Origin: an uncultured Bacteroidales bacterium
GTDB lineage: Bacteria > Bacteroidota > Bacteroidia > Bacteroidales > UBA932
NCBI GenBank assembly: GCA_946403855.1
Contig: CAMJBH010000007.1
Coordinates: 43,835 to 107,834 of the forward strand
Direction: 5' to 3'
DNA: 64,000 bases
The notes under the pieces were generated by a model, which did no database searches, was not told the origin of the DNA, and worked only from the letters and a program-made list of their open reading frames with translations. Below, in pieces: positions 9,660 through 31,778 of the stretch (the first letter of the stretch is position 1; the number at the start of each line of letters is the position of its first letter). The translations under genes were made by a program, and so were the position numbers.

Positions 9660-10550
9660 ATGATTGAGTTTCCCGCAAGTAAATGGACAGATTATGAGCT
9701 GCTCGACAGCGGCTCCGGAGAGAAGTTGGAACGTTTTGGCCCCTATGTGCTTTGGCGTCCTGAGCCCAAAGCGCTGTGGGACAAGAGTCTGCCGCTGAGT
9801 GAATGGAGCCGTCTGGCGCATACTCGCTTCAAGCCCGGCGCGGGCTTTGGCAAAGCGGGAAAGGAGGACAGCGGCACTTGGGAGCGGCTTCATAAGATGG
9901 ACGACCAGTGGTGGATTCGGTTCTCTTCATTCAACCTGCGCCTCGGGCTCACATCTTTCAAGCATGTGGGGGTGTTTCCGGAGCAGGCTCCCAACTGGGA
10001 GTTTATTAGCCGGAAGTGCGCTGGCATGGACCATCCCAAGGTGCTGAATCTCTTTGCATATACGGGTGCCGCGTCGCTTGCGGCCCTGGCGGCGGGAGCG
10101 GAGGTGACTCACCTCGACTCGGTGAAGCAGGTGGTGACCTGGGCCCGCCAGAATATGGAACGTAGCGGTATGGACGGCATCCGCTGGATAGTCGAAGATG
10201 CCATGAAGTTCGCCCGCAGGGAGGCTCGCCGCGGCAACCTGTACGACGGGATAATCCTGGATCCGCCGGCTTATGGGCACGGGCCCGATGGAGAAAAGTG
10301 GAAGCTTGATGAGTGTCTTTTCGAGATGTTGCGTACGGTGGCTTCTATTCTTAAGCCGAGCAATTCTTTTATGGTGCTGAACCTCTATTCCAACGGCTAC
10401 AGCGCCGCCCTTGGAGAAACCCTTGTCCGCGAAGCTTTCGGGATAAAAAGCAGTTCTCCTGACATGAATCTCACGTCAGGAGAACTGGCTTTAAACGACA
10501 GCTTCGGAAAAGTCCTTCCGCTGTCTATAGTTGTAAGGCTCGAAAGATAA
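9660..10550 (+). CDS. class I SAM-dependent methyltransferase (RlmI-like)
   Basis: [50 protein letters not shown]. Confidence 0.88.
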
Positions 10551-12852: not shown

Positions 12853-14238
12853 TTATCTGGATGTGTAAGGTCCGGAGATCTTTTTCACGGCCTTCTTGCC
12901 GTCCGAATCGGTCAAGGTATAAATAAAATAGCGCTTTCCGCCTTTTTCTACCCTCACAACAATATGTCCGTCGCTGCCTTTTACCCGGCTCCAACGAGCG
13001 TAGGAATACATGTCGGAGTTGGAATTGGTGATGAACACGTCCATCCCCTGTGCATAACCTGTAACTCCTTCAAACACAGGCTGGCGCGGGTGACCGTCAG
13101 TCCAGCTGTTGATAATCCAGCAACGGGGGTCGAGATATTTCATGGCTTCGCACACGTGGCCGTTCTTGGCAACGAAACCATGACCGTTGGTGTTGGTCAC
13201 GCCGTGGTGGTCGGCCTTCATGACGTCCACTTTCCCGCTGGCCTTGGCCACGGCGGTCTCCATGTCCTTCCATGCAAATGTGGAGCAGCCGTCGTACTGG
13301 GCGTCGCCTCCGTGGAAGAAGTCGAAGGTTCCGTAGCTAAGCTTGAACACAGTGGTACAGTGGTTCTCTTCGGGGCAGCAGTCCGCATTGCCTACGCTGG
13401 CGGGATTGGCTACTTTTATATCCTTGAGTGCTGGGAATGTGGCGGTGAAGCCGCTCTGCGATCCGTCCCAGATGTTGCCGTTGACGGCTATGTTACGCAC
13501 CGAAAAATCGCTGTAGGCGCCCGGATTTCGCAGCATCACAATCTGGTCGGCAGCGCCGGCCCGGAACATCTCAGCCTTAAGCCCCCTGTTGGCTACGTGC
13601 CACTTGACTGCTGTTACATAATTCTTTATGGCAGAGGCGTTTGAAGCCTTTGTTTGCATGTCGAAGGGATAGTCGTACGAAGGCCATCCGCGGTCCATTA
13701 GCAAGCCGACCGGCAGCAAGTCGAGCACTTCGGGAAGGCTCTGCTTGCGGTAAGTCGTAGAAAGGTCCGAGACCGGCATGGACGTGTTGTAACCACCGAA
13801 ATGGTCGGCGTGGAAATGGGTGTCAATCACGTAATCGAGCTTGCTGTTTCCTGTCCAGGCCATGCAGTCCTTGATGTAATCCGCAATGAACTTGCCCGCC
13901 CTGAAAGAAGGGTCCACGGTAGGGTCCCAGCGCTTGCGGATGCCGGTGTTGGTCGTGCTGCCCACTGCTCCTGTGGCGGAAATGGACCCGGCGGCGTCCA
14001 CCAGCATCTGAGTACCGTCGGGGAAAATCAAGAAGGTGCTTTCCCCGGTTGTGGTGTTGATAAAGTGTATGTCCAGGTACCCTTCCTGCCAGGCCGGAAG
14101 AGCCTGTCCTATCTTTGCATCAACTGCCGGATCGAGAGTCTCTTTCTCGGTTTTCCCTCCGGGAGTCGGGGGAGTATAAGCTTCTTCGCAGGAGAAAAGC
14201 AACAGCAGAGCGGGAAGAATTAGCAATATTTTTTTCAT
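12853..14238 (-). CDS. lipoprotein with ComEC-like metallo-beta-lactamase fold (MBL-1)
   Basis: lipobox LLFSC; LDIHFINTTTGESTFLIFPDGTQMLVDAAG, DTHFHADHFGG, FHGGDAQYDG, MKADHHG. Confidence 0.88.
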   Translation of the reverse strand: MKKILLILPALLLLFSCEEAYTPPTPGGKTEKETLDPAVDAKIGQALPAWQEGYLDIHFINTTTGESTFLIFPDGTQMLVDAAGSISATGAVGSTTNTGIRKRWDPTVDPSFRAGKFIADYIKDCMAWTGNSKLDYVIDTHFHADHFGGYNTSMPVSDLSTTYRKQSLPEVLDLLPVGLLMDRGWPSYDYPFDMQTKASNASAIKNYVTAVKWHVANRGLKAEMFRAGAADQIVMLRNPGAYSDFSVRNIAVNGNIWDGSQSGFTATFPALKDIKVANPASVGNADCCPEENHCTTVFKLSYGTFDFFHGGDAQYDGCSTFAWKDMETAVAKASGKVDVMKADHHGVTNTNGHGFVAKNGHVCEAMKYLDPRCWIINSWTDGHPRQPVFEGVTGYAQGMDVFITNSNSDMYSYARWSRVKGSDGHIVVRVEKGGKRYFIYTLTDSDGKKAVKKISGPYTSR

Positions 14239-15627
14239 CTACCTTGCCGTAAACGGGCCGAGTTTAGATTTGACTTTGTACTGTTCGTTGCTGTCGTCCA
14301 GCACGTAGATGTAGTACTTGTTGCCTCCGGGCAGCACCCTCACCACGACATGGCCGCCGGTGGTGGCAAAGTTGGCGGGGTTGATGCCGGCGTCATTCAA
14401 CGTTGCTACATTGCTGGACGCCAGGTTGGTGGCGAAAATGCGGGTGTTGGGATTGGCGTCATACACCCTCTGGAGCGTGGCAGGATTGGGTTGTACGTCT
14501 CTCCACACGCCTGCAATATAGAAGTCGGGCTTGAGCACGCCGAGCAGTTCTGCGCCGTTGGTATTGGCGGTGCTGTGGTGGCTGGCCTTCATGCCTTCAA
14601 CCTTTTTGACGACCTTCGAGATGGGCTTCTCGATGTCTTTCCAGGCATAAGTGCTCTTGCCGGAGTACTGAATGTCGCCGCCGCTGAAGAAGTCGAAACT
14701 GCCGTACTTCAGCATGAAGACACAGGAAAGAATGTTTTCACTGATGTCATAGGCGACATGGTTTTTGTCGCATTCTTCAGTGCTTGGAAGGTATGTGGTA
14801 TTCACCGCTGTGCCGCTTCCCGTCCATATGTCTCCTCCGGAGGCAATGGTACGCAGGCTGAAACTGCTGTACTTGGAGGGCTCGTGCTTGAGCACCACCT
14901 GGTCGTCATAACCTATCTTCAGGGTCTCGCGCACGGTGCCGTTCTTGCGGGCTGCGTAGTCGAGGTAATTGACATACAGCTGGTAACGCTTCTTGCCGCC
15001 GGCATCGTAGTAGTCGGCACTGGGACGCGAAGCCCAGTCGCCGCGGTCGAACACCTTGTCGATGGGGATGGACAGGCCGACTTCGGCTATGCCGTTGAGC
15101 AGGAAGCCGCCTGCATTGAGATTAACCGTCGATACCTTGTTGCCGTCCTTGTCGAAAGGAGTCCAGCCGAATTTAAGATAGTTGTCTCTCCACGAGCCTA
15201 TGTGGTCGCCGTGGTAGTGCGAGCTCATGAAATAGTCCAGTCGGCCGTTCGCCACGGCGGGAGCAAAGTGCTTTATGTAATTGACTATCACTGCGCCGCT
15301 GTTTACGGACACGCTGGGCTTGGAGGGCACGCCCTGGGAATCGCTGTACTTGTGCAGTTCAGTGGGCGGGGCACCGGCGGCGTCGCACAGCATGGTGGTT
15401 CCGTCGGGGAAAATGTAGTAAAAAGCTTCGCCGCGTCCGCCGTTTATGCTGTGTATGTCGAGGTAGCCTTCCTGCCATGCCGGAAGAACGTCTCCGACTT
15501 TGACGTCAATTGCCGGATCGAGGTTTTCTGGTTCTTTTTTGCCTCCCGGGGTCGGGGGTGTATAAGGCTCCTCGCAGCCGTAAAGTGCAGCTGCGAGGAA
15601 CGCTATAACTAAGAGCTTCTTTCTCAT
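14239..15627 (-). CDS. lipoprotein with ComEC-like metallo-beta-lactamase fold (MBL-2)
   Basis: lipobox ALYGC; SSHYHGDHIGSW, FSGGDIQYSG, MKASHHSTANTNG; paralogous to MBL-1. Confidence 0.88.
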   Translation of the reverse strand: MRKKLLVIAFLAAALYGCEEPYTPPTPGGKKEPENLDPAIDVKVGDVLPAWQEGYLDIHSINGGRGEAFYYIFPDGTTMLCDAAGAPPTELHKYSDSQGVPSKPSVSVNSGAVIVNYIKHFAPAVANGRLDYFMSSHYHGDHIGSWRDNYLKFGWTPFDKDGNKVSTVNLNAGGFLLNGIAEVGLSIPIDKVFDRGDWASRPSADYYDAGGKKRYQLYVNYLDYAARKNGTVRETLKIGYDDQVVLKHEPSKYSSFSLRTIASGGDIWTGSGTAVNTTYLPSTEECDKNHVAYDISENILSCVFMLKYGSFDFFSGGDIQYSGKSTYAWKDIEKPISKVVKKVEGMKASHHSTANTNGAELLGVLKPDFYIAGVWRDVQPNPATLQRVYDANPNTRIFATNLASSNVATLNDAGINPANFATTGGHVVVRVLPGGNKYYIYVLDDSNEQYKVKSKLGPFTAR

Positions 15628-15752: not shown

Positions 15753-17471
15753 CTAATATCCTGGATTCTGGGTCAGGTTAGGACATACCACCCTCTCGTT
15801 TTCGGGGATAGGGAAGAGGTATTCACGAGGCACAAAAGCACCACGCTGATTGATGGTAAAGTATTCTTTGTAGTTTTCGATGTCCGCAATGCTGATGGCG
15901 GAACTTGCCGTCATGTGCGGACGGAAATCCTTGGGCCAGGGCCAGTAGCCGGTAGCCTCGTTCTTGGCACTCTGTTCGTTGCCGGGCAGACCGTAAATGG
16001 GCATGGTGAAGCACTCTTCGGCCATTCTCCAGCGCATGACATCGAACCAGCGGCGGTTTTCCCACGCGAGCTCGCAGCGGCGCTCGTTGCGGATAATCTT
16101 ACGCAGGGCCGTCTGGTTGGTCTCGGTGATGGCGGGATACTTCGAGGTTTCTTCGACCTTGCATTTGTAGGCACGTGCGCGGATGCTGTTCACGGCGTTG
16201 AAAAGGCTGGCGTCGATCTCGCCGAGCTCCATCTTGGATTCGGCATACATGAGCAGCACGTCTCCGTAGCGGATGATGCGCATGGGAGTGTCCGTCAGAC
16301 GGTCGTCTATCCATTCCTCATCAATGCCCTTCTTGAGCACCAGTCCGTTGTAGGAGCAGTCCTTGGACACGGGCTTGGTGTCGTTGTTCTTGACCATCTT
16401 GCCGGTAGAGACCTGCAGGGTCTGGGTGGCGCTGGGACGGGGGTTGTAGACATAGTCCATGAACTCGGAGTCGAAGGGAACGATGAGCTCGCTCAGGCGG
16501 GGATCCCTGTTGGCGAAGGGATGGGCTGGGTCGTACAGAGGGGAATCCTCCACGTTCTTGCCGTCCGTGCAGGTGTAGGCAAAGAACAGCTGCCATGTGG
16601 GCTGGGCCACGGAGGTGCCGCCGTTGTTGCGGGGATAGAAGCTTCTGGTGGCAGCCTCGTCGTAGGAGTGGATGCCGAGCTCGTTGGATGCAGGCAGCAC
16701 GAAGATGAATTCGGGGCTCGTCTTGGTCTTGGAAAGGAAGAGCTCGCGGTAGTCTTCATGCAGGGAATATACTCCCAGGTCCATGCAGGCCTTGGCCGCG
16801 TCGGCGCAGGTGCGCCAGTCGTTCATGAACAGGGCTGCGCGAGCCTTCATTGCAAGAGCTGCGCCCTTGGTGGCGCGCTGGGCCTTAGTGTAAGAAACCG
16901 GGAGAGCGTCGGCAGCGTCGTCGAAGTCCTTGTAAATCTGCTCCAGGATGTAGTTGCGGTCCGTACGTCCCATCTTGTAGGCGTCCTCCAGGGTGATGTA
17001 CTCATCGTAGTAAGGCACATCTCCGTAGAGGGTGATGAGATAGGTGTAGAACGACGCCCTGAAGAACTTGGCCTCGCCCTCATATTGGCGTATCTGATCA
17101 TCGGAGAGGTTCTCCTTGGCCTTGTCCAGGCTCTGTATGATAGTGTTGGCACGGGCTATGCCCTTGTAGTAGGCCGCCCAGTGCTTGGCGCCTTCGCCCC
17201 ATGTGGTGGAGATGGTGCCTCCAAGCCAGTCATAGGTCTGGGTACGCTGGTTCCAGTCGTCGGTCCAACGGTCGGTGGGCCAGAGGCGCCACGCCTCGGT
17301 GTACCACATGGAAGGGGAGTACAGGGCGTTGAGCGATACTTCGAGCTCCTGGGCCGTCGAGTACCAGTTCTCGCTGGAACCCTGGCTCTTGGGGCTGAGG
17401 TCGAGGTTCACGCAGGAACTCATCAGAGCTGCTGCAGCGAATGCGGTGAATATATATTTTTTCATTGTCAT
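15753..17471 (-). CDS. SusD/RagB-family nutrient-binding outer-membrane lipoprotein
   Basis: MKKYIFTAFAAAALMSSCVNLDLSP; RNERRCELAWENRRWFDVMRW; IPENERVVCPNLTQNPGY. Confidence 0.96.
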   Translation of the reverse strand: MTMKKYIFTAFAAAALMSSCVNLDLSPKSQGSSENWYSTAQELEVSLNALYSPSMWYTEAWRLWPTDRWTDDWNQRTQTYDWLGGTISTTWGEGAKHWAAYYKGIARANTIIQSLDKAKENLSDDQIRQYEGEAKFFRASFYTYLITLYGDVPYYDEYITLEDAYKMGRTDRNYILEQIYKDFDDAADALPVSYTKAQRATKGAALAMKARAALFMNDWRTCADAAKACMDLGVYSLHEDYRELFLSKTKTSPEFIFVLPASNELGIHSYDEAATRSFYPRNNGGTSVAQPTWQLFFAYTCTDGKNVEDSPLYDPAHPFANRDPRLSELIVPFDSEFMDYVYNPRPSATQTLQVSTGKMVKNNDTKPVSKDCSYNGLVLKKGIDEEWIDDRLTDTPMRIIRYGDVLLMYAESKMELGEIDASLFNAVNSIRARAYKCKVEETSKYPAITETNQTALRKIIRNERRCELAWENRRWFDVMRWRMAEECFTMPIYGLPGNEQSAKNEATGYWPWPKDFRPHMTASSAISIADIENYKEYFTINQRGAFVPREYLFPIPENERVVCPNLTQNPGY

Positions 17472-17483: not shown

Positions 17484-18893
17484 TTATTCTACAACCTTGA
17501 TCATAGGATGCTCCTTGACGGAGTAGTGAGGAGTGTTTGCGTTGCAGTCCTCGCCGGCGAAACGCAGGGCGTGGGATTTGTTGATCAGAGTCACGGGAGC
17601 GCCGTCCATGCAACCGGCATTGGATGTGGCCGTGATGCGGAATATCGCGGCCTCGGTGTCTTTGGAGAGCGTGACCACGGGGTTGATGACGGTGTTGGTC
17701 TGGTTGCCGGCCCCGTCGGCATAGGTAAGTTCGACGTTATACTTGAATCCGTCGCCTTCCTTGGCGGTTCCTGCCACTTTCCACTCGTCACCGTCGAGAT
17801 ACTCGACCAGCCAGTACTTCATGACAAAGAAGTTGTTGGGCCTGAGCACGAAGTAGAGCGAAAGCTTGGTGCCGGCGGCCAGGGGTGCCTCGTTCTCGGT
17901 GTACGCGGTCCAGAGGATGTAGTCGTCTTTGTAGGTACCGTACACGACCGGTTCGCCATAGCTTCCGATGGCCCTCTTGCAACGTTTGTGGGCCGCATCC
18001 AAAATGCCTGCGGCGGCCTTGTCGATGCCGTTGTAGTACTCCAGACGGCCCTTCCCGGACACGTTGGGCTCTACCCAAAGGCCTCCGTTGCCGGGAGCGT
18101 CCGCCAGATCGTCAGCCGTGGCTTCGTTGAAGTGCGCGGCCAGGATATCCACCTGGCTGGTGGCAAAGTACCACTCGGCGAGCACGGTGCCGGGAGCGGG
18201 CTTGATGGCCTCTTTCTCATCTTTCGCTGCCTCCTGGGTGAGTGTGATTGTGTAAGAATTGTTGCGAACCTCGGTTGAGGTGGTGCTCACGGTCAGCGTG
18301 GCGGAAACCTCCGTTTTTGCGGTATTGGCAGGGAATTTCACGGTCACGGTTGCATTGCCGCTGCCTGATGCCGGGTCGGGGACGAATGCCGTGTTGCTGC
18401 TGGTGATAGTCCAAGCAACTGCGTCGTCTGCTGTCACGCTGATGATTGCAGAAGTCTCTTTTGCCGCCACGGATAAGCTTTCGGGACCTGCAGAGAAGTC
18501 TTTATACACAATAGGTTCGGCATCTTTCTCGCTGCCGTCCTGCACCACGTCAAAGCTGGTGACAGAAATATTGAGCTCTTTGTCGATGACGGAAAGGCGA
18601 GCGGCGCGGGCCACTGCCGAAGGGTTGGCCTTGGCGGTTACGGTTACCACGCTGTCGGCCTGTGAGACGCTCAGCCAGTCGGCGGTCTTAGGCACCGACA
18701 CGGTGAATGCGGGGCTGCGGTGCACGGTGGCGGTGAGAGTACCTCCCTCGGCGGGGATCCTGTCCGTTGTGGACAGTTCCACGCTTGCCCGGCTGCCGGC
18801 ATATTCAGAGACCTCGTTTTCGGGGTTGATGGCCGGCGTGCAGGCGGCTAATGTAAGAGCCGCGCAGAGGAATATGCTAATATACTTTTTCAT
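17484..18893 (-). CDS. BACON-domain lipoprotein
   Basis: lipobox LAAC; repeats with IPAEGGTLTATVHRS..DWLSVSQADSVVTVTAKANPS..R.ARLSV pattern. Confidence 0.8.
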   Translation of the reverse strand: MKKYISIFLCAALTLAACTPAINPENEVSEYAGSRASVELSTTDRIPAEGGTLTATVHRSPAFTVSVPKTADWLSVSQADSVVTVTAKANPSAVARAARLSVIDKELNISVTSFDVVQDGSEKDAEPIVYKDFSAGPESLSVAAKETSAIISVTADDAVAWTITSSNTAFVPDPASGSGNATVTVKFPANTAKTEVSATLTVSTTSTEVRNNSYTITLTQEAAKDEKEAIKPAPGTVLAEWYFATSQVDILAAHFNEATADDLADAPGNGGLWVEPNVSGKGRLEYYNGIDKAAAGILDAAHKRCKRAIGSYGEPVVYGTYKDDYILWTAYTENEAPLAAGTKLSLYFVLRPNNFFVMKYWLVEYLDGDEWKVAGTAKEGDGFKYNVELTYADGAGNQTNTVINPVVTLSKDTEAAIFRITATSNAGCMDGAPVTLINKSHALRFAGEDCNANTPHYSVKEHPMIKVVE

Positions 18894-18904: not shown

Positions 18905-21900
18905 TTACTTAATGATACAAACAGCGACACGGTTGTCGGACGGGCTTGCGTTGGCATCCCTGTCGGTACCCGCGGCTTTGCACTCGATCCTGTCGGCGGA
19001 AATACCTGCGGCAGTAAGCATATTGGCCACTACGTCGGCGCGGTTCTCAGACAGGACCTTGTTGATTTCGGATGAACCGGTAGCGGAATCGGCATAGCCG
19101 GTTACGATAATCTTGGCTTCGGGATTATCCTTCAGTATCTGGCAGATACGGCCAAGTTTGAATGCTTCGTCAGGACGGATTTCGGATTTGCCGATGAGGA
19201 AGAACAGGTCGTCGGTGTATTCTCCCTTGAGCGAAGATACGGGAACTTCCACCTTCTTCTCCACCACTTTCTCAACTTCCTTCACAACCTCTTTGATGAC
19301 TTCCTTGACCTCAGGCTGAGCGGCCTTTACGGCCTTGGCTGCAGCAGCTGCGGCAGCAGGAGTTGCATAGGCAGCGCCGGCGGCGGAAGCTACCCTGGTG
19401 TCTCCTCCAAAGGTTACCTGCAGACCCAAAGTGAAGGTCCTGGTCATGTATGCGCTCAGGTTGGTGTAGGATTCAGGATCCCAGCCCTGGGGGAAGCGGT
19501 CGATGGAAAAAGGATCGGTGGCACTGGCATACACGCGGATGCGCTCCATGTTTATGGCCTTAACAATGCGCTCGGGGATGGTGTAGCTCAGGGTGATGTT
19601 CTTCATGCGGAAGTAACCGCCGTTGAAGAGCCAGTAGTCGGAGGTCTGCTCGTAGTCGTTCTTGGCAGAGTTGGTGAGAGTGGCGCGGGGATACAAGGCC
19701 TTGGCGTTCTGCTCGTCGGTCTTGTAGCGGCTCCAGTAGTGCTTGTCGTATTCCACGGGGAAGGTGTAGGCGTCACCGTCGCGGTAAACCATGGCCTGGC
19801 CCTTCCATGCGAGCACCTTGCCCACGCCCTGGAAAGTCATGGACAGATCCCAGTTCTTCCAGCCCAGGTTGATGTTGCCGCCGAACTGGTAATGGGGAGA
19901 CGAGCTTCCGAGGACTTCGCGGTCGTAGGTGGCATTGACGATTCCGTCGGGGACGGGATTGCCGGGGGTGCCTTCGGGACCGTTGAGGTCTTTGTATTCA
20001 ATGTTGCCGAGGCCTACGCTCGGGTAGAGTTTGGCGCTGGCAGCAAGCTGCTCGTCGGTGAGGTAAAGACCGTTGCTGCGGTAGCCGTACCATGCATTGT
20101 ATTCCACACCTTCTTTGATAATCTGGCTTCCGAGGCTCTGATAGCCGCCCAGGTTGCCCATGACGGAGGTGTAGTCGGACAGGTTGGCGCTGACGGCGTA
20201 GGTGAAGTCGCCCTTGCGGTCCTGCCAGCCGATCTGGATTTCCCAACCGTTGGTGTACATCTGGCCTATGTTGTCCTGAGGGTCGGAGTAGCCGAGCACA
20301 TCGGGGATCTTGCGGCTCAGGAGCATGCCGTAGGTGTCTTTATGATAGATGTCGCCTGTGAAGTTGAGGCGGTTGTTGAAGAAGCTCAGATCTACGCCCA
20401 AGTCCCATGTCTTGGTGGTCTCCCAGGTGATGTCGTAGATGGAGTATGCCGTCTGGGCCGCCGTCATGACGGAAGCGATGCTGGTGGGAGAGTCGTACAT
20501 AGGCACGGTGCCGAAGGCGATAAGGCTCTGGTAAGGATAGTTACCTATGCGCTCGTTACCAAGCGTACCATAAGATGCACGGATCTTAGCAAAGTTCAGT
20601 ACTCCTCCGCCCACGATTCTCTGCATCCAGGGCTCTTCGGTCACTACCCAGCCCAGGGACACCGAAGGGAAGAATCCTCCGCGGTACTCCTTGGCAAAGC
20701 GCGAAGACTGGTCGTAACGGGCGTTTAGCTGCAGGAGGTAACGGCCCTTGTAGTCATAGGTGATGCGGCCAAAGAATGAACGGTAGGCGTTCTCGGAGGC
20801 GTTGCCCTTGGGATAAACGATGTTACCGTCGGAATCGGTGCCGATGAGATAGTTCTTGTTGGCAAGATTGAGGTAGGGATAGCCTGCGAGTTCCATGCGG
20901 TCCGATCCGGCCACCAGGCTCTCGGTGAAGTTGTAGCTGTCTTCGTAGCCGAGCATGTAGGTGGTGTGGTGGTTCTCGCCGAAGTCGGCTTTGTAGTTGA
21001 GCAGCAACTGCTTGGTGATGGTCTTGGAGTCGGTGCGGCTCTCGGTCAGGGAGTTGTAGTTGCATCCGCTCAAGGGGTTCTCGCTCAGCACGCCGGGCTC
21101 GCGGTAGTAGTAGGCCTGCTTGACGTAATCCTTCTCCTTGCTGTTGCGCAGCGACGGGGCGAACACTCCGGTGATGGTGAAATTCTTGAACGGAGTGATG
21201 ATGAGGGAGGCCTTGCCGTAGAAGGCGTCGCGCTCTGTGTTGTCGAAGCCGCCGGCATGGATGCGGGCGTAGGTGTTGGTGCCGTTGTTGCCAGGGCCCA
21301 TGGTGCCGTCGGACCAGACTGCGGCATAGATGGGGTTGTACTTGAACGCGGCCTGCACAGGGTTGACCTGGTTGTTGTTCGACAGCTTGTGGTTGAAAGT
21401 CATGTCGAAGGACGCGCTGATGAAGTTGTTGATCTTGATGTCGTTGTTCAAGCGGGCGGTGTACTGCTCCACGTTGCGGCCCACATAGAGGGCGTCTTCG
21501 TTCTCATAGGAGAGCATGGCGCGGCTCTTGATGTTCTTGTTACCGTAGCTGATGCCCACGCGGTGCTTGTGCTGGGGAGCCCATTTTGCAATCATGAGGG
21601 CGTCCCAGTCGGTCAGAGGATAGCTGTCCGGATCGAGGGCGTGGTTAGCCATGTAGTTGTTCACGAAGTCCTCTTCGTACTGGAAGTAGTCGCGGCCCTC
21701 GGGGTTGCCTGCATCGTTCCACTGGGCTTCGTTCTGAAGTTCCATGAAGCGTGTTGGGCTCACCTGCTCGGGATGGCGGGTACGGGTCAGCACGGAGAAG
21801 CTTCCGTTGTAGTCTATGCTCATCTGGCCTTCCTTGGCGCGCTTGGTGGTGATGAGGATCACACCTGCACTTGCACGGGCGCCGTAGATGGAGGCGGATG

Positions 21901-22516
21901 CAGCGTCTTTCAGGACGGTGATATTCTCGATGGCGTCAACATCCACATCGTTAATGGTGCTCACGGGCACGCCGTCAACGATGATCAGAGGGTCGGAATC
22001 GCCGATGGTGGTGATACCGCGCACGCGGATAGTAGCGCCGGCACCAGGCAGGCCGCTGGTTCTGGTGACCTGCACGCCCGGCATGGAGCCTTGGAGGGCC
22101 TGGCTGAGGCCTACGCCCTGGATGGCGGAGAGTTTGCCGCCGTCCACGGCCGCAACTGCGCCGGTGAGATCTTTCTTCTTAACTGTACCGTAACCGATGA
22201 CCACAACCTCGTCCAGGAGTTTGTTGTCATCTTGCATGGTCAGGTCAATAATCTGGCGGGTGCCTACGGTTTGCTGCACGGCTTGGAAACCTATGCAGGT
22301 AAACTCGAGCACTGCGTTTTCCGATTTGACCGTCAGGGAGTACTTGCCGTCCACGTCTGTGGTGGTGCCGTTGGTGGTTCCTTTCTCCACTACTCCGGCC
22401 CCGATCACCGCCAGACCGTCTTTATCGACGACAGTACCCGAGACCCTGATCTGTGCATTGGCGGCGATTGCGCCCAATGCAAGGGTCAAGAGTGTGATCA
22501 GAATGTGTTTTTTCAT
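18905..22516 (-). CDS. SusC/RagA TonB-linked outer-membrane transporter fused to a C-terminal OmpA-like domain
   Basis: carboxypeptidase-D-like N-terminal domain, plug (VVIGYGTVKKKDLTGAV), SusC barrel; then Ala-rich/coiled linker and DDLFFLIGKSEIRPDEAFKLGRICQILKDNPEAKIIVTGYADSATGSSEINKVLSENRADVV. Confidence 0.93.
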   Translation of the reverse strand: MKKHILITLLTLALGAIAANAQIRVSGTVVDKDGLAVIGAGVVEKGTTNGTTTDVDGKYSLTVKSENAVLEFTCIGFQAVQQTVGTRQIIDLTMQDDNKLLDEVVVIGYGTVKKKDLTGAVAAVDGGKLSAIQGVGLSQALQGSMPGVQVTRTSGLPGAGATIRVRGITTIGDSDPLIIVDGVPVSTINDVDVDAIENITVLKDAASASIYGARASAGVILITTKRAKEGQMSIDYNGSFSVLTRTRHPEQVSPTRFMELQNEAQWNDAGNPEGRDYFQYEEDFVNNYMANHALDPDSYPLTDWDALMIAKWAPQHKHRVGISYGNKNIKSRAMLSYENEDALYVGRNVEQYTARLNNDIKINNFISASFDMTFNHKLSNNNQVNPVQAAFKYNPIYAAVWSDGTMGPGNNGTNTYARIHAGGFDNTERDAFYGKASLIITPFKNFTITGVFAPSLRNSKEKDYVKQAYYYREPGVLSENPLSGCNYNSLTESRTDSKTITKQLLLNYKADFGENHHTTYMLGYEDSYNFTESLVAGSDRMELAGYPYLNLANKNYLIGTDSDGNIVYPKGNASENAYRSFFGRITYDYKGRYLLQLNARYDQSSRFAKEYRGGFFPSVSLGWVVTEEPWMQRIVGGGVLNFAKIRASYGTLGNERIGNYPYQSLIAFGTVPMYDSPTSIASVMTAAQTAYSIYDITWETTKTWDLGVDLSFFNNRLNFTGDIYHKDTYGMLLSRKIPDVLGYSDPQDNIGQMYTNGWEIQIGWQDRKGDFTYAVSANLSDYTSVMGNLGGYQSLGSQIIKEGVEYNAWYGYRSNGLYLTDEQLAASAKLYPSVGLGNIEYKDLNGPEGTPGNPVPDGIVNATYDREVLGSSSPHYQFGGNINLGWKNWDLSMTFQGVGKVLAWKGQAMVYRDGDAYTFPVEYDKHYWSRYKTDEQNAKALYPRATLTNSAKNDYEQTSDYWLFNGGYFRMKNITLSYTIPERIVKAINMERIRVYASATDPFSIDRFPQGWDPESYTNLSAYMTRTFTLGLQVTFGGDTRVASAAGAAYATPAAAAAAAKAVKAAQPEVKEVIKEVVKEVEKVVEKKVEVPVSSLKGEYTDDLFFLIGKSEIRPDEAFKLGRICQILKDNPEAKIIVTGYADSATGSSEINKVLSENRADVVANMLTAAGISADRIECKAAGTDRDANASPSDNRVAVCIIK

Positions 22517-22545: not shown

Positions 22546-24033
22546 TTATCCTAGGAAAGCTTTCTGTTCCAGCAGTATGCGGCGTACGTCCGAAGCTTCG
22601 ACGGCGCGGGGGGCGCATCCGCCTTTGACGGCCAGGGCAGCGGTTATTCCGGCGGCGTGTCCCATGGCCATGCACGGCGGCATGACCCTCACGGCTCCCG
22701 CCGCATCGGAAGTGGCGGATATGGCGCGTCCCGCCACGAGCAGGCCGTCCACCCGCTGAGGGATGAGACTGCGCAGGGGCAGGCCGTACCAGCGTCCTTT
22801 CTCTACCGTTTTGTATTCGGTGGTGTTGGCGCCGTTGCGGCCGTGTACGTCCACCGAGTTGGACGCCACGAGTATGGCGTCGTCCTGAACCACGCCCTGC
22901 AGCAGGTCGTCTGCCGTGAGGACGTATTCGCCCAAGACATGGCGGGATTCCCTTATTCCGAGGGTGGATGCCGAACTCTTGATGGTGGCGTTTTCGCAGC
23001 CGGGCACGTATTTGTGGAAGAAGTTCATGAGTTCCTGCACCTGCCTGCGGCCTTCTTTTTCTGCGGCGGACAGGCTCTCTGTGCTGGTGGCATCTACTTT
23101 AGCTATGCGGGTGCAGTTCACGGCCCATTCGTCCTCCCGCACGCCGCGGTAGATGTTCACGCTCTTGCGGGCAATGTCCCATTCGCCTGCGGCTTCGGCC
23201 TGTTCTACTCTCCAGTGGAGGGCTCTGTAGCTCACGCCGTTCACTTTGCGGAATTCGTGCAGGTGGGCTTCTATGTCGGCTGTGAGCCTGGGGGTGTCCA
23301 CGTTGTTGATGTGGAAGAAGAGGGTTGCAGGCTGCACCGTGCCAAGTTCGGGATTGCCGAAGGTGCAGGGGACGCCGGCTCTTGCCGACACGTCGCCGTC
23401 TCCGGTGGCATCTATGACCACCTTGGCGCCTATGCTGGCGAGGCCTTCCCTGCGCAGGACGCGTATTCCGGTGATTCTGTTGCCCTTGAGCATGGCATCC
23501 ACGAGCGTGGTATGGAACATGACTTTTACTCCCGCTTCATCGCACATCTGGTCCAGTACGAACTTCATGGTTTCGGGGTCGAAGGGGGTGAGATGGTCGT
23601 GGCCCTTGGTGATCCATGCGCTGAACGGGGTGCCGGCGCGGACTTCACGCGGGTGGATGGCGCCGCCCAGTGCAACCATGCGGTCCACTATTTCTTCGAA
23701 GATGCCGCGTATGATCATCTGTTCGCCGGTGGTGTCGTAGCATGTCATGAAAGGGGCTACGAGGCCTCTTGTGGCCATTCCGCCCAGGCAGTTGCCCTGT
23801 TCTACGATGAGGGTCTGCGCTCCGCAGCGGGCTGCGGCTATTGCCGCGCACACTCCTGCGGGACCTCCTCCGACCACGAGCACATCGGTGCTGCCAAGGT
23901 CGGACGCCGGATCCATGCCGGACAGGCACGATGTGGCCATGGGGCCCGTGGCACCCAGAAGGGCGCCTCCGGCAAGGGCAGCTCCGCCCGTCTTAAGAAA
24001 GTCTCTTCGTTTCATAGGTTTATCTGCATTCAA
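22546..24033 (-). CDS. FAD-dependent oxidoreductase, Tat/lipoprotein-like signal
   Basis: MKRRDFLKTGGAALAGGALLG; TDVLVVGGGPAGVCAAIAAARCGAQTLIVE; VVIDATGDGDVSARAG; start may be at 24015. Confidence 0.9.
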   Translation of the reverse strand: MNADKPMKRRDFLKTGGAALAGGALLGATGPMATSCLSGMDPASDLGSTDVLVVGGGPAGVCAAIAAARCGAQTLIVEQGNCLGGMATRGLVAPFMTCYDTTGEQMIIRGIFEEIVDRMVALGGAIHPREVRAGTPFSAWITKGHDHLTPFDPETMKFVLDQMCDEAGVKVMFHTTLVDAMLKGNRITGIRVLRREGLASIGAKVVIDATGDGDVSARAGVPCTFGNPELGTVQPATLFFHINNVDTPRLTADIEAHLHEFRKVNGVSYRALHWRVEQAEAAGEWDIARKSVNIYRGVREDEWAVNCTRIAKVDATSTESLSAAEKEGRRQVQELMNFFHKYVPGCENATIKSSASTLGIRESRHVLGEYVLTADDLLQGVVQDDAILVASNSVDVHGRNGANTTEYKTVEKGRWYGLPLRSLIPQRVDGLLVAGRAISATSDAAGAVRVMPPCMAMGHAAGITAALAVKGGCAPRAVEASDVRRILLEQKAFLG

Positions 24034-25249
24034 AAGGACCCCACTTGCAGGTGATATGGTAAGCAGGGTCTGTGTCGTCGATGGTATAGATAGTGTATGT
24101 TTTGCCGCCTTTTGCGACTCGCACTACGATGTGTCCGCTGGTGGAGGCGATACGGTCCAGGTAGTCCTTGATCAGGTTGCCTGGAGCCAGGTTGGTGAGG
24201 AATACCTTGCAGTCGGGGCTGGCGGCGAAAACAATGTCAAGAGTCTGAGGATTGGGCTGGACGTCGCGCCAAACATGGGCAAGCAGGGCGTCGGGGCGGA
24301 GCGCATTCAGCAGTTCCGGACCGTTGGCACCTTTGGTACAGTGGTGGTTGGCCTTCATCACTTCCACTTTATGGCAGACCCTGCTCACTGGCGTCTCGAT
24401 ATCAAAATAATCGTGTATGTCTTTATGGGACCACTGCAGGTCGCCACCGGAGTAGATGTCAAAGGGACCGTAGCTGAGGATGAAAGCGCAGCTCAGGGCG
24501 TTCTCGCCGGGGTAGGCTTTCGGATCTCCGATGGAGTCGAGAACGGCCTTCGAAGGCATGTCGGTAGCCCATTCGTGGCTGTCCATCGACAGGCGGTAGC
24601 GGCCGTTGGCGGCTATATTGTGCACACAGAAGCCGGGGATGTTTTTGTGCACCGGCACAATCTGGCTGTCGGAAGCCGGGTCGAAGAATTCGTAGCGTGT
24701 GCCGTTAACTTTTGCGCTCCAGTTGACGAATTTGGCAAAGTTGGCGATGTTGTCCCCGCGTGCGCTGTTGGAGGCCTTGACTTCTGTCGGGTCTCCGCGG
24801 CTAATCAGGCGTTTGTAGGGGAAGGCTGAACCCACTTCGCATAGGCTGGTGAGCCAGAAGTGGCCGTCGGGGTGCTGCGGAAGGCTTTTGGAACAGTCTC
24901 CCATGTGGTCGGTGTGATAATGGCTCAGGACGAAATAGTCGAGGCTGTCGGAAAAGTTCTTCGGCGCGAAATGCTTGATATAGTCAATGATCACCTTGCC
25001 TGAGGTGGACGTGCTGTCCGGCTTTGGGGCCGTGGGCATGTACTTGTGTTTCTTGAGCAGAGAACCTGCAGCGTCCACAAGCATGGTGGTACCGTCCGGG
25101 AACACAAAGAACATGCTTTCCCCCCGCCCTGTGTTGATGGCATGGATGTCAAGCACGCCTTCCTTCCACGGCGACAATTTTGCGGTAGGAGCGCAGGAGG
25201 CCGACAGCAAGAGTGCTGTACAAGCTATAACAAAGCTAAAATTCTTCAC
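24020..25249 (-). CDS. lipoprotein with ComEC-like metallo-beta-lactamase fold (MBL-3)
   Basis: lipobox LLSASC; LDIHAINTGRGESMFFVFPDGTTMLVDAAG, LSHYHTDHMGDC, YSGGDLQW, MKANHHC. Confidence 0.88.
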   Translation of the reverse strand: MKNFSFVIACTALLLSASCAPTAKLSPWKEGVLDIHAINTGRGESMFFVFPDGTTMLVDAAGSLLKKHKYMPTAPKPDSTSTSGKVIIDYIKHFAPKNFSDSLDYFVLSHYHTDHMGDCSKSLPQHPDGHFWLTSLCEVGSAFPYKRLISRGDPTEVKASNSARGDNIANFAKFVNWSAKVNGTRYEFFDPASDSQIVPVHKNIPGFCVHNIAANGRYRLSMDSHEWATDMPSKAVLDSIGDPKAYPGENALSCAFILSYGPFDIYSGGDLQWSHKDIHDYFDIETPVSRVCHKVEVMKANHHCTKGANGPELLNALRPDALLAHVWRDVQPNPQTLDIVFAASPDCKVFLTNLAPGNLIKDYLDRIASTSGHIVVRVAKGGKTYTIYTIDDTDPAYHITCKWGPFECR

Positions 25250-25409: not shown

Positions 25410-27035
25410 TTAGCGGTAGTCTCCTTCGAGTTTCTCGCCGGTGAGTCCCGGACTCAGGCGGAAAAAGGCGCAGCCGTGGGCGGGCACTTTGGTCTCGAAT
25501 CTTTCTTTCTGGGCTATTTTGGCAACATCTTTCTGGCGCCACAGGTCTCTGACAGTCTGGTCGCCGAGAAGGCCCAGTTTGTGGGGCACGAAGCCCAGCA
25601 CACGCTCGGTATCGCCCAAATTGAACAAAGCCACAGCGAGCGTTCCGTCCTCCAGGGGCTTGATGTAGGTGACATGTCCGTCTCCGGAGCCAAAACGTAC
25701 TCCCTGTATGCCCAGCGGATCCTGGTTCACGTCCAGTACCTCGTTGTTGGTCAAGAGACTGAGCGTGAAATCGTCGAGCAGCGCCATGTCGCATCCCAGC
25801 AGCATGGGCGAGGCCAGAATGGCCCAGAGGGTTATGTGCGTATATTGCTCCCATGGAGTGAGCTGGGTCCAATGCATTTTGCGGCCCCAGCCAACCTTGC
25901 CGAGTACCAGCATGTCGGCATCGGGCCAGTGTCCGGGGCCCCGGAAACCTGCCCAGCAGTCCTGCCCTTCGAAGCCTATGGTGGACATGCTTTCCCAGGT
26001 GTCGCGTATGTCGCCGGTGGTGCGCCAGCATTCGGCATATTTCAGCAGAGCCGGGCCCAGGGTGACGCGTGCGCGGTTGGATATGCTGTACACAATGTCG
26101 CGTCCGGTGGCGTTCAGGGCCTCCCGCATGTCGCGCAACCACCATTCGTCGTTGGGATTCCAGTCATACTTGAGGTAGTCCACACCCCAGTCGGCCCACT
26201 GCTTGGCGTCTGCAGCGGCGAAGGAGTATTTTCCGAAGATACGTATGGCCTCTTTGTCGAGTTTGCTCCTGTCGAGCTTGTAGTACTCGTCCACGAGTCC
26301 CTGTTCCACCCACCAATAGGTGCCGTCGGCGTTGTCGCAGGAACTGCCGATATGGGAGGCGTAGGTGGAGAGCCAGGGGCCGGAATATATGCCGAATTTG
26401 AAGCCTCGCTCATGCAGCGAGTCGCCAAGGGCCTTCATGTCCGGGAATTTCTTGTTGGGCTGTATGGCGTTGTATTTTCCGCCGCGCACACCCTGCCATC
26501 CGTCGTCTATGTTGATATAGCTCCAGCCGTAGTCGGCAAGGCCCTTTTCGTCCATGACCCGGGCCGATTCCAATATGAGTTTCTGACTCACGCTGTTGCC
26601 CCAGCAGTTCCAGGAATTCCATCCCAGCGGCGGCGTGAGGGCGATTTTGTCGCCTATCTCAAGGCGCAGCGTGCGGGTGTCGCTTCCGAGGGAATTGGTG
26701 GCAGTGACCTGCACTTTGTAGCTTCCTTTGCGCCGTGCCTTGCCGCGTATTATGCCAGTTGACGGGTCGAGTTTGAGCCCCCTGGGCAGACCTTTGGCAC
26801 TGAAGGACATGGGCCTGATGCCGGTGGCAGGTATGCGGAAGAGGAAGTCGGCCCCGGGTCTGGCTCCATAGACTCTGGGCCAGTTGATGCGGGGTGTGTT
26901 CGGGGCGGGCGGGGTGAGTATGTAGGCGCTGTAGTCGGGAACGGCGATGCCCTCTTCGCCGGGCAGCTGGGCCGCGGCTGTCAGGCACATTGTAAGGCAA
27001 GCCAAGAATAAACTGATATTTTTCATAATAACCAC
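25410..27035 (-). CDS. alpha-galactosidase (GH27-type) with N-terminal Ig-like region
   Basis: LTPPLGWNSWNCWG, YINIDDGWQG, WADWGVDYLKYDW, GPGHWPDADMLVLG. Confidence 0.95.
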   Translation of the reverse strand: MVIMKNISLFLACLTMCLTAAAQLPGEEGIAVPDYSAYILTPPAPNTPRINWPRVYGARPGADFLFRIPATGIRPMSFSAKGLPRGLKLDPSTGIIRGKARRKGSYKVQVTATNSLGSDTRTLRLEIGDKIALTPPLGWNSWNCWGNSVSQKLILESARVMDEKGLADYGWSYINIDDGWQGVRGGKYNAIQPNKKFPDMKALGDSLHERGFKFGIYSGPWLSTYASHIGSSCDNADGTYWWVEQGLVDEYYKLDRSKLDKEAIRIFGKYSFAAADAKQWADWGVDYLKYDWNPNDEWWLRDMREALNATGRDIVYSISNRARVTLGPALLKYAECWRTTGDIRDTWESMSTIGFEGQDCWAGFRGPGHWPDADMLVLGKVGWGRKMHWTQLTPWEQYTHITLWAILASPMLLGCDMALLDDFTLSLLTNNEVLDVNQDPLGIQGVRFGSGDGHVTYIKPLEDGTLAVALFNLGDTERVLGFVPHKLGLLGDQTVRDLWRQKDVAKIAQKERFETKVPAHGCAFFRLSPGLTGEKLEGDYR

Positions 27036-27153: not shown

Positions 27154-29220
27154 CATGTCATTTATTGCTTCGCCATATTCAATGAACTTCGCGGCTGCGT
27201 TGAGGAAATGTGCAGTGATCCAGAAGACAGTCCAGCTTTCGGCGTAACCTCCACGCAACTTGTGCACGTCGGACATGTCTCCCCGCTGAGCAAAATTGGT
27301 ATGCTGGATCTGCTCCCCCTGGCTGCCGTAGGCGTCGGTAAGCTGGTAGCAGCTGCGGTACATTACTTTCGAAAGCTTCACCAGGCGTTCGTCCCCCAGC
27401 AGCCTGCCCATGCGGCAGACTTCCGGAGCGAACAGCACTCCGTACACATCCAGGTGCTGATTCTGGGGCGACACAACCGTCCAGCCCGTGGATTTGAATC
27501 CACGGTCCGAGAGGCGCCCGGCAGGAAGGGGAATGTCCCATACCGCCACATAGCTCAGGCACACGTCCATTGCGTGCCGCGCCCAGTCCAGATACTGCTT
27601 CTGACCGAAGCGCTCGTAGCACTCAAGGAAGCCCTGGAATGCAGCCCAGGCCCCTTCTTTGTCTTCGCAGGTGGCATCCAGGGTGCCTCCCCAATAGCAG
27701 CCGTCCATCTCCAGATGCCGCTCTGCAAAAAGCCCGGCAGCCTTCTGGGCGGCATTGCGGTACCGCGCCTTGCCGAACAGTTCGGACGCCGCCGCCAAAG
27801 GCGCAATGCAGAAAGCTTCGGCGGTGGAAAGCGGATTCCATTTGCAGGAAAGTATCCGGTCCGCAGTCTTGTCGCAGGCCGTTTTAAGGAATTTTTCCCA
27901 CTTGGAGACATCGTATGTCCCGGGGTGCCTGCGTGCGTATTCAATAGCCTTTGCAAAGTTATACATGGCCTGCCCGCATGAGACCGGATCGCCCTGGTCC
28001 CAGGCCCCTGTCTCGCAGTTGTAGCGTGTGCAGAACAGGCCGTCGTCGCGCCAGGAGCAATTGGTAAGGAAATCCAGGCTGCGCTGCACCCTGTCGCGTA
28101 TGTTTTCGGAGGTCCAAGGCCCGGAGCCGGAGACAAGCAGCGGCTCGAGTACCTGCATGGCGTAGCCGGGCGAAGCGGCCTGCCCGCACCAGCCCATCAC
28201 AATGTGCTTGCGGGAAGAGCGTGGATCGTACATGTTGAATCCACAGGCCTGTGGGCTTTCTGTCCATCGCGATGCTGCAAAGCGGGCCTTTCCCTCCACG
28301 ATCTTACCGAAACTCTCGAAGCGTTCGGCATCGTAGGGCTTGTAGCGGTCGAGACTTGCGTACAGGGGCCTTCGGAAGCCGCTGCCCTTGCGCTCTATGG
28401 CATATAGGTCGATGTAGAATTCCTTTTCGACAATGCGTCCGGGTTCCATGTCGATCCATGTGTCCGCATAGCGCATCGACTTCTTCTGGCGGGCCTTGGC
28501 CGTGCTGCGTACGCCGTTGTATCCTATCGGGCCGCTGTACATTACGAATTCGGTGCAGCCGTCGCAGGCCTCAGCTCCAAGCGACCACCATTGGTCGTTC
28601 AGCACTGCGCCTCTGACGGGCGAAGGAACCGTGTGCACGGCCGCTGCCCTAAGGTTCGCCGCATCTTCCAGCATCACGAAGGGCATGGGGTAGCGGTGGT
28701 CTTCGAATATGGCGAATTCTCCGGGCGCTCCGGTCCAGACCGGCACTGCCGAGGGATTTATGGATGCGCCGTTGGAGTTGCCGTAGTAGATGATGCCGGG
28801 GGCGAAGAGCGACAGCCCGGTGCCGTGCTTCTGCAGCCTCACCGAGAGCGTTGCGTGCCGCAGGGTATCGGGCCCCTGCCATTCAAAACGCCTGATGCAA
28901 TGGATCATGCCGTTCGCCGTGGCGGTGTAGGAGTCGCTCAGGAGCATTTTCCCTTGGGGCAGGTTCAGTTCGCCGTGCAGTACCGTCCATTTGCCGGAGG
29001 CTTCAACTGATTGGACGCCAGCATGTTGCCAGCCGGCGGGCCAGTCGTTGTGCCATTCGGTAGCAACGGACCATAAGCCTTCTGCGGGCGCCCTCAAAGT
29101 GTCGGTTCCGTCGGTAAAACACACCGACAGGCGCTCATCCGTCAGCAGGCGGGTCTGGGCGCCGGCAGACAGAACTGCCGTCAACAGGGCTGCAGATAAT
29201 ATGTATCTTTTAATCTTCAT
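27151..29220 (-). CDS. exported six-hairpin-glycosidase-like protein of uncertain family
   Basis: signal peptide; alpha-helical C-terminal region with WDQGDPVSCGQAMYNFAKAIEY, WAAFQGFLECYERFGQKQYLDWARHAMD. Confidence 0.6.
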   Translation of the reverse strand: MKIKRYILSAALLTAVLSAGAQTRLLTDERLSVCFTDGTDTLRAPAEGLWSVATEWHNDWPAGWQHAGVQSVEASGKWTVLHGELNLPQGKMLLSDSYTATANGMIHCIRRFEWQGPDTLRHATLSVRLQKHGTGLSLFAPGIIYYGNSNGASINPSAVPVWTGAPGEFAIFEDHRYPMPFVMLEDAANLRAAAVHTVPSPVRGAVLNDQWWSLGAEACDGCTEFVMYSGPIGYNGVRSTAKARQKKSMRYADTWIDMEPGRIVEKEFYIDLYAIERKGSGFRRPLYASLDRYKPYDAERFESFGKIVEGKARFAASRWTESPQACGFNMYDPRSSRKHIVMGWCGQAASPGYAMQVLEPLLVSGSGPWTSENIRDRVQRSLDFLTNCSWRDDGLFCTRYNCETGAWDQGDPVSCGQAMYNFAKAIEYARRHPGTYDVSKWEKFLKTACDKTADRILSCKWNPLSTAEAFCIAPLAAASELFGKARYRNAAQKAAGLFAERHLEMDGCYWGGTLDATCEDKEGAWAAFQGFLECYERFGQKQYLDWARHAMDVCLSYVAVWDIPLPAGRLSDRGFKSTGWTVVSPQNQHLDVYGVLFAPEVCRMGRLLGDERLVKLSKVMYRSCYQLTDAYGSQGEQIQHTNFAQRGDMSDVHKLRGGYAESWTVFWITAHFLNAAAKFIEYGEAINDM

Positions 29221-30778
29221 ATCGGGGAATGCTGAAGTTCATCTCAAAGTTGGGGTTTCCGCTCGGTACCGGGGCGTGCTCGGCTTCGATGATCTTCCAT
29301 AAACGCTGCACCGTCTGGGGGTGCTCAGCTGCGAGGTCCGTGCTTTCGCGCGGGTCGTCGTCCAGGTTGTAGAGTTCCATGCTGAACTCTCCTGTACGTA
29401 CATTTTTCACAAGTCCTTTCCATGGCCCTTCACGCACTGCAAGCCAGCCTTTCCCTCCCGGGAATTCCCAGTAGAGATATGGGTGCTGCGGCTGTTCCTT
29501 CCCTTTCAGGGTGGGGACGAAAGAAATGCCGTCGGTTTGCGGGGCTTCTGCGCTGGCAAGCTCGGCAAGTGTGGGCATAAGGTCCGTGAATTGTCCCATA
29601 TAGCCGCTCCGGCCTGGTTTTATGCGGGAGCCCCAGCTCACGATGAACGGCATCCTGATGCCGCCTTCGTGCAGGCTGCTCTTGCCCCAGCCCTTGCGGC
29701 ACTTGAAAGGTCCGCCGGATTTGAAATATTCGCCCGGAGAGTTGGAATTGGCCGCGGGGCCGTTGTCGGAGCTGATGATTATCAGGGTGTTGTCGTACAC
29801 GCCAAGATCTTTGAGCCTCTGCACCAGCTTGCCCACCTGGGTGTCTATGTGGGTGATCATGGCCGCATAGGCCGAGTGGGGGTAGAGCACCGGGTAGTAC
29901 CAGCCGCCGTCGGTTATCGGGGTCTTCTTTTCTTTCAGCTTGTCCACGTAGTACATCACTTCTTCTTCCGGGGCCTGTACGGTGCTGTGCGGCACTGTGG
30001 TGGTCCACATGAGGAAGAAGGGGCCTCCTGCATTGTCGCTTACCCATTTGTCCAGTTTGTCGAACATCAGGTCGCAGGAGTAATCCTTCTGGTTGAATTT
30101 GTCGTAGCTGCGCGGGTCGAGCGGGTCGGCGCCGGGGTCGAGCCTGCGGTTGACGGGCATGTAGGCGTTGCGGGTAAAGACCTTGGTGTCGTTTTCCCAC
30201 AGGTAGTCGGGATAATAGGAGTGGGCCAGCATCTGGCAGTTGAAGCCGTAGAAATAGTCAAAGCCGCAGTCGCCCGGGGCGGAGCCGGAGCCGGGACCGC
30301 CGAGGCCCCATTTGCCTATCATGGCGGTGCTGTAGCCTGCATCTTTGAGCATGGTGGCTATTGTGGTGGTGCCGGGGGCCAGCGGCCATTGGCCTTCGAG
30401 GTCGGGATTGTCGTGGATGGCGTCGAAGTACCAGTCGGCTTCCGAGAGCACCATGTTCGCGGGACGGGCCCAGCGCTCGTCGTTACCGCGTATCTGGCTG
30501 TGACCGCTGTGAAGACCGGTCATGATGCTGCACCGGGACGGCGCCGAAAGCGGGCATGCCGTGTACATGTCGGTGAATATCAAGCCTTTGGATGCCAGTG
30601 CGTCTATGTTCGGAGTCTCTATTGCGGTCTGCCCGTAGCAGCCCAGGTCGCCGTAACCCAAGTCGTCGAAAAGGAGAAAGATAATATTCGGACGCTCAGG
30701 CTGTTTGCCCTCACAGCCCGCGACCAGAGGCAATAGAGCGGCCGCTGCCGCACCGGGTGCTAGTCTTCTCATATTCAT
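29210..30778 (-). CDS. sulfatase, serine-type active site
   Basis: PNIIFLLFDDLGYGDLGCYGQ; PLSAPSRCSIMTG active-site motif; start trimmed from 30874. Confidence 0.93.
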   Translation of the reverse strand: MNMRRLAPGAAAAALLPLVAGCEGKQPERPNIIFLLFDDLGYGDLGCYGQTAIETPNIDALASKGLIFTDMYTACPLSAPSRCSIMTGLHSGHSQIRGNDERWARPANMVLSEADWYFDAIHDNPDLEGQWPLAPGTTTIATMLKDAGYSTAMIGKWGLGGPGSGSAPGDCGFDYFYGFNCQMLAHSYYPDYLWENDTKVFTRNAYMPVNRRLDPGADPLDPRSYDKFNQKDYSCDLMFDKLDKWVSDNAGGPFFLMWTTTVPHSTVQAPEEEVMYYVDKLKEKKTPITDGGWYYPVLYPHSAYAAMITHIDTQVGKLVQRLKDLGVYDNTLIIISSDNGPAANSNSPGEYFKSGGPFKCRKGWGKSSLHEGGIRMPFIVSWGSRIKPGRSGYMGQFTDLMPTLAELASAEAPQTDGISFVPTLKGKEQPQHPYLYWEFPGGKGWLAVREGPWKGLVKNVRTGEFSMELYNLDDDPRESTDLAAEHPQTVQRLWKIIEAEHAPVPSGNPNFEMNFSIPRYED

Positions 30779-30820
30779 GTTCAAAAATAGACAATTTGAA
30801 ACTAAAATCCAACAGCTTAA

Positions 30821-30903
30821 GCGAGGTGCTTCGGCTGGCACCCCCTGCTTCATATCGGGCCGATTTTGCGCCACCGGGTGCCTCTGTCTGCACCCCTTGA
30901 CAC
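30821..30903. repeat. pair of REP-like palindromes downstream of the RAYT
   Basis: gcgaggtgcttcggctggcaccccctgc and caccgggtgcctctgtctgcaccccttgacac. Confidence 0.7.
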
Positions 30904-30917: not shown

Positions 30918-31778
30918 TTAATTGAAACCTTCCAGCATCAGAGCTACCTTGTCGTACGGCAGATTTGTAACTCGCGAGATTTGGTTGGCGTCGGCACTGA
31001 AGCGCCTCTGAATCTGACGAATTAATTCAGCGAGATTATCGGCGCTCAATGATTTGATGTTTTGGGCTCGGAAAAGAGACATGGAAAGGTCCTGAACTGC
31101 GTTTATCAGCACCTGATCCCTAAATGATGGAGCCGCATTCTTTTCAAGATGAAGTTTCGATTTGGATGATGAATTCAAAAACCATGTGTAGCGCTTAGGA
31201 TTTTGGTAGAGTTTTTCTACAAAGGTCACGGCCACGTAGCTTTGTGGAAGTATAAATCCTTCATTGCCAATCACATACTCATCGGGAAGCCGGACATGGC
31301 TGTGGAACAACGCCCTTTTCTGTCTCTCGGAATAGGAGGATAAATACGTCGTATATGGCTTTGTGAGGTTGAAAAAAGTGGCACCGGTGCCCCAAGGATA
31401 CAGACTTGGATGTGGCGTAATGTTAGCTGCGACACAGTTCATCTGCACGTAAGCTATTCCGCGCTGAAGAGATTCGTCTTTGATGCTAAGCTCGCGAATA
31501 TCAACCGGATGCTTTCTCAGAAACTCGCCAATTCCGTATTTCTTGCGATAATAGAAACTGTAAAGCATTTTGAAGTGATTGATAAAAGCTACGGATTGAT
31601 CATAACTGCACGCGAGCACAAAGTGCACGTGATTTGACATCAAAATGAAAGAAAGCACCGGGACATTAAGTACGAAGGAGGTGATAGCAATGAAGTTCAT
31701 CGCGGCCCTAAAATCGGCATCGTCACGGAAAAGGACATTGTCTGACAGATGGTCAGTAGTAACAAGGTGAAATTTCAT
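30918..31778 (-). mobile_element. REP-associated tyrosine transposase (RAYT / Y1_Tnp family)
   Basis: FILMSNHVHFVLAC HUH-type motif, QRGIAYVQMNCVAANITPHPSLYPWGTG; flanked by palindromic repeats. Confidence 0.85.

Follow-up and report, generated by a model that had tools for sequence, protein, structure and literature searches.

A SusC-type transporter that continues into an OmpA-like, putatively peptidoglycan-binding domain in uncultured Bacteroidales

Introduction

Outer membrane transporters of the SusC/RagA family (TIGR04056; solved, e.g., as 5t3r, 8aa4 and RagA 6sli) share a CTD-plug-barrel layout and a TIGR04057 signature and pair with SusD; the chains known so far stop with the final strand of the barrel. 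A C-terminal peptidoglycan-binding domain is a feature of other envelope proteins. In the OmpA/OprF-type porins of Bacteroidales, an 8-strand barrel is followed by a linker and a PF00691 domain; BT_0418 is a porin F ortholog of this type (PMC6222051). In Bacteroidetes, the same kind of domain closes the TPR-propeller-CTD-OmpA lipoprotein PorE (PMC12204202, PMC5053529), which has been proposed as a tether between outer membrane and peptidoglycan (PMC12204202). Pal, in which the domain is carried on a lipid anchor, is mobile and works with Tol. Bacteroidetes are without identifiable tol-pal loci (PMC12204202). The protein described here would bear on how Bacteroidetes attach their outer membrane to the cell wall.

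This protein is encoded within a 64,000-nucleotide stretch of a draft genome from an uncultured Bacteroidales bacterium, referred to below as the window. It resembles SusC/RagA proteins in its CTD-plug-barrel layout, TIGR04057 signature and SusD pairing, but carries 167 residues more than they do. From the OmpA/OprF-type porins it shares the type of linker and the C-terminal domain, whereas a TonB-dependent transporter replaces their barrel. With PorE it has the C-terminal OmpA domain in common (structural match to 6top), although PorE is a lipoprotein with neither barrel nor transporter. The domain fold and binding residues are those of Pal, with anchorage by a barrel in place of a lipid. SusC-OmpA is a real, conserved and apparently undescribed architecture built of two well-known parts.

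Architecture of the fusion

The fusion gene (18905 to 22516, minus strand) is a single uninterrupted frame of 1203 amino acids running from an ATG at 22516 (N-terminus MKKHILITLLTLALGAIAANAQ...) to a TAA at 18905-18907. This ATG was taken as the start, since a frame opened at the listed GTG (22675) would run into the upstream gene. All parts lie on the same strand. A signal peptide of about 22 residues, judged by eye from the sequence (22451-22516), precedes a CarbopepD_reg_2 domain (22199-22444; PF13715, E = 8.3e-16), a TonB-dependent receptor plug (21860-22180; PF07715, E = 2.5e-17) and a SusC beta-barrel (19409-21859) with the end ...TFTLGLQVTF. TIGR04056 was matched over positions 2-981 of 981 at 877 bits (cut-off 368), ending at the Phe of ...LGLQVTF, and the chains of the solved SusC homologues that align to the barrel end (5t3r, 6zlt, 6sm3) stop at that same residue. 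The TIGR04057 signature scored 54.4 against a cut-off of 46.2.

Beyond the last barrel strand, the frame continues through a 61-residue linker (19226-19408), Ala-rich at first and then EVKEVIKEVVKEVEKVVEKKVEVPV, with KEV repeats, into a 106-residue OmpA C-terminal domain (18908-19225; PF00691, 60.8 bits against a cut-off of 27.2, E = 1.7e-16). An earlier sequence-only reading of the window had proposed that a SusC barrel runs on, in one ORF, into an OmpA-family domain past the point at which SusC proteins normally end; the profile matches and the solved chains bear out both statements, and the coordinates it gave were right, the tail lying at 18905-19408. The protein thus lacks the C-terminus at the last barrel strand that is usual for SusC, with its other SusC characteristics unaffected, and a SusC barrel stands where an OmpA porin would have its N-terminal 8-strand barrel.

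A profile search of the PDB with the tail matched the domains of OmpA, Pal, YiaD and PorE. A model of the tail built from nine sequences showed a beta-alpha-beta-alpha-beta-beta order, with a pLDDT of 58-89 in 10-residue blocks of the domain and below 50 in the linker, and Foldseek matched it to 9uu2, PorE 6top, Pal 1oap and 3td5 (E = 1.6e-7 to 3.1e-6, prob 1.00). The last of these is an OmpA domain with a peptidoglycan stem peptide, matched at E = 3.1e-6. A model of the full-length fusion reached a mean pLDDT of 44.7, so the linker path and exit point are not reliably modelled. By alignment, the Asp of GYAD (19088-19090) and the Arg of ENRAD (19040-19042) correspond to D271 and R286 of Acinetobacter baumannii OmpA, which bind diaminopimelate (PMC6572160), and both are also aligned with Pal residues. 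They were invariant in a 13-sequence alignment and are present in the remaining fusions too. The tail therefore belongs to the OmpA domain family by its PF00691 match, its conserved Asp and Arg and its fold.

Occurrence of SusC-OmpA fusions

When the family and GTDB genomes were searched, fusions of the window's type came to 20 in 10 Bacteroidales genomes, with one to four per genome. There was no stop codon at the join in any of the 20; 19 of them cover most or the whole of the barrel, and the other (L065) is cut by a contig end. Those fusion-bearing genomes that carry names are uncultured Bacteroidales MAGs, several of them from ruminants by title (RUG.210, RGIG7615 from water buffalo omasum, RUG13332, red deer and two SRR109125xx bins). 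In 19 loci SusD is the next gene or the one after that, and in the twentieth the contig ends first. Other neighbours vary among barrel groups (GH20, GH88, phosphoesterase, MBL-like), and no partner gene apart from SusD is common to all the fusions.

The window's own genome holds a second fusion on another contig, with a barrel 29% and a domain 79% identical to those of the first. Since only 2 of the 21 plug-bearing proteins in this genome carry the tail, it is not needed for SusC function. Of four PF00691 matches in the same genome, three above the cut-off, two are on SusC proteins. Ordinary OmpA proteins are also present in fusion-bearing genomes; the one in the window's genome (457 aa, L083:2530-3900) has an unusually long, Ala-rich, helical-looking linker of a class unlike the SusC tails.

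Queried with the tail, 4 of 200 genomes of the family yielded a fusion. In a 393-genome sample of the order, a frame longer than 1000 aa with a match at E = 1e-14 or better appeared only in the window's genome among the matches listed (about the best 150), in a search that could miss fusions whose OmpA domain is highly divergent. The large PF00691 frames checked in a survey of the family and phylum (L077, L080, L081 and L082, from about the best 150 matches) were PorE-like or other proteins, with no SusC among them. Across the genomes searched, the window's OmpA sub-type is found only on SusC frames: all matches below E = 1e-38 lie in frames of at least 1083 aa, except one cut by a contig end. 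No description of a SusC-OmpA fusion was found in the open-access literature, an absence that is weak evidence. The suggestion that the architecture is unusual therefore stands, as it was seen in one family and not in the other families of the order sample and is apparently undescribed; it recurs in 20 loci of 10 genomes without being common in that sample or already described in the papers searched.

Origin and exchange of the tail

The tail appears to have been added to a SusC protein that lacked it. Related genomes contain nineteen SusC homologues with 42-75% identity to the window's barrel; their frames measure 1017-1149 aa, and those that were read end at the last barrel strand. The nearest is a syntenic ortholog from the same genus (L106, 75% identity), in which the order oxidoreductase - SusC - BACON is that of the window and the SusC frame closes without a tail, at ...VKTFTVGAQITF-stop (...VGAQITF-stop), before the BACON gene. 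This copy has an in-frame TAG about halfway and may be broken or carry an assembly error; its 3' end is clear. Most simply, the window's lineage acquired the tail behind a barrel that had no such extension. Outside SusC, the closest relative of the tail (support 85/85, which is not strong) is L076, an OmpA protein of 390 aa whose KEV-type linker resembles its own, and the donor was probably an OmpA-type porin.

Barrels and tails tell different histories. The 20 barrels fall into nine groups that are 20-38% identical to one another, whereas the OmpA domains are 49-86% identical across those groups. Placed in a tree alongside 30 ordinary OmpA domains, all 20 tails from SusC proteins formed one clade (support 100/100) from which ordinary OmpA was excluded. 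AU tests rejected trees in which the tails of one barrel group were held together for group A (p = 0.0005), group B (p = 0.0001) and, marginally, group C (p = 0.044); for group D, with two rows, tail monophyly was not rejected. Tails belonging to groups A, B and C in one genome (G203) form a cluster that also takes in one from G204, at a support of 100/95. Inheritance of the tail with a single SusC lineage was therefore set aside, as the barrels are unrelated and the AU tests reject tail monophyly for three groups. Separate fusion of each SusC to the ordinary OmpA of its genome is likewise unsupported because the tails form one clade apart, though unsampled donors could exist.

A direct trace of exchange is provided by the same SusC in two genomes (L062 and L063), where the barrels are 94% identical and the OmpA domains 68%. 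In 150-base steps, DNA identity is 82-91% before the domain, 69-77% within it and 94-99% directly after it, and the L062 domain shares 79% identity with that of a different SusC from the same genome, against 68% with the domain of its ortholog. Such a pattern is expected if recombination between SusC genes replaced the tail. There was no sign of recent gene conversion with near-identical DNA: at the DNA level, tails within one genome reach an identity of just 62-80%, which makes the exchanges old. The single tail clade, the AU conflict, the L062/L063 comparison and the tail-less ortholog together point to a tail that, once acquired, was handed from one SusC gene to another. We propose that it was joined to a SusC that once ended at the last strand and subsequently moved between SusC genes by recombination, which would make it a clear example of a domain that changes places among paralogues whose barrels do not move.

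The SusC-OmpA combination has arisen at least twice. A second type, which occurs beside the first in two genomes (L069:1528-5376 in G203 and L070:7882-11730 in G204), is 1283 aa long, scores above the cut-off for both TIGR04056 and PF00691 and is followed by SusD. Its coiled-coil-like linker differs from that of the first type, and its OmpA domain falls elsewhere in the tree.

Putative function of the tail

We consider it probable (roughly 75%) that the tail serves as a non-covalent peptidoglycan anchor that would fix the transporter to the cell wall. The two termini of an outer-membrane barrel lie on the periplasmic side, so the tail would hang where peptidoglycan is; we infer its periplasmic exit from this general topology. 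Peptidoglycan binding is in turn suggested, though not proved, by the fold and by the two binding residues that are kept. The fusion putatively works as the SusC partner in a SusCD nutrient importer, with a C-terminus that leaves the last strand towards the periplasm and there runs on into the rear portion of an OmpA-type protein. Its domain would most likely hold meso-diaminopimelate stem peptides non-covalently through the Asp and Arg, as OmpA and Pal do, thereby pinning the transporter to the cell wall. Such fixation, as originally suggested, is the best-supported reading; the accompanying idea that the domain locates the transporter at TonB found no direct support.

The main role of the anchor may be that abundant transporters tether the outer membrane to the cell wall. 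The same tail occurs in nine SusC groups that are unrelated to one another and whose neighbouring enzymes differ, which argues for a general envelope job and not one tied to a single nutrient. Further roles may be superimposed. In Bacteroides thetaiotaomicron, a peptidoglycan-binding porin stays in the outer membrane, while some SusC-like proteins are found in both membrane and vesicles (PMC6222051); it is therefore possible that the tail keeps SusC in the cell and out of vesicles. The tail could also brace the barrel when TonB pulls the plug. ExbD of the Ton motor contacts peptidoglycan (PMC10771500). Bracing against the TonB pull, or placement near the Ton motor, is possible but unsupported. 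More tentatively still, and rather doubtfully, we speculate that an anchor module passed within genomes between unrelated transporters has turned chosen pumps into outer-membrane rivets that offer a fixed point for the TonB pull.

An alternative hypothesis is that the OmpA-like domain binds a protein partner in place of peptidoglycan, such as another SusC-OmpA tail in a dimer, a periplasmic enzyme or a part of the Ton machinery. OmpA-like domains also make protein contacts, with Pal-TolB and YfiB-YfiR among the structural matches, and the KEV-repeat linker, 48-71 residues long across the fusions, could be helical or coiled-coil. However, both peptidoglycan-contact residues are kept in every fusion even though the tails are only about 50-93% identical, and SusD remains the sole gene that accompanies them, making a protein partner an unlikely target. 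More improbable again is a tail without a function of its own that is spread by recombination and merely tolerated. Exchange between unrelated SusC genes would fit such a passenger, as would the lack of a tail on most SusC proteins of the window's genome and on its relatives as a rule, but the OmpA domain has a dN/dS of about 0.07-0.26 (nine pairs, simple counting method), which argues strongly that the tail is kept by selection, and the frames are open in 20 of 20 copies with invariant binding residues. Finally, the possibility that a sequencing or assembly error removed a stop codon and joined two neighbouring genes, which a draft genome (1.95 Mb, 82% complete, 32 contigs) might invite, can be dismissed almost entirely, as the same join recurs in 20 loci of 10 genomes on nine different barrel groups, the domain shows the dN/dS of a selected sequence, and a BACON or SusD gene, not the remainder of an ompA gene, lies downstream.

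If peptidoglycan anchoring is correct, a transporter with its own anchor would tie nutrient import directly to envelope architecture and would be relevant to the question of whether the outer membrane has to be braced for TonB-dependent transport. Nutrient pumps may double as rivets between outer membrane and cell wall in some uncultured Bacteroidales. The window's SusC and its tail-less ortholog offer a natural pair of SusC proteins, with and without the anchor, in the same syntenic operon.

Gene neighbourhood in the window

The fusion lies in an operon-like row on the minus strand. A FAD-dependent oxidoreductase with a TAT-type signal (22546-24033; PF12831) is 29 nt upstream, a BACON-domain protein with a lipoprotein-like N-terminus (17484-18893) 11 nt downstream, and the SusD partner (15753-17471; PF07980, E = 6.8e-49) a further 12 nt on. 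Two paralogous metallo-beta-lactamase-fold-like lipoproteins complete the row, one (14239-15627) with no Pfam match and an HxHxDH-like motif recognised by eye, the other (12853-14238) with a weak, below-cut-off match to PF00753. Both are conserved beside the fusion in two other loci (L029 and L030). With a related gene at 24020-25249, three such lipoproteins flank the SusCD genes, their Pfam matches being weak at most. Elsewhere in the window, an apparent N-terminal extension of the PGK gene (8352-9893) was discarded as a feature, since it looks like an over-long ORF start, and a weak, below-cut-off match to a Y1 (IS200-like) transposase lies at 30918-31778. Upstream on the same strand as the fusion are an alpha-galactosidase-like protein with a He_PIG domain (25410-27035) and a sulfatase (29210-30874), which are possibly part of a larger polysaccharide utilisation region.
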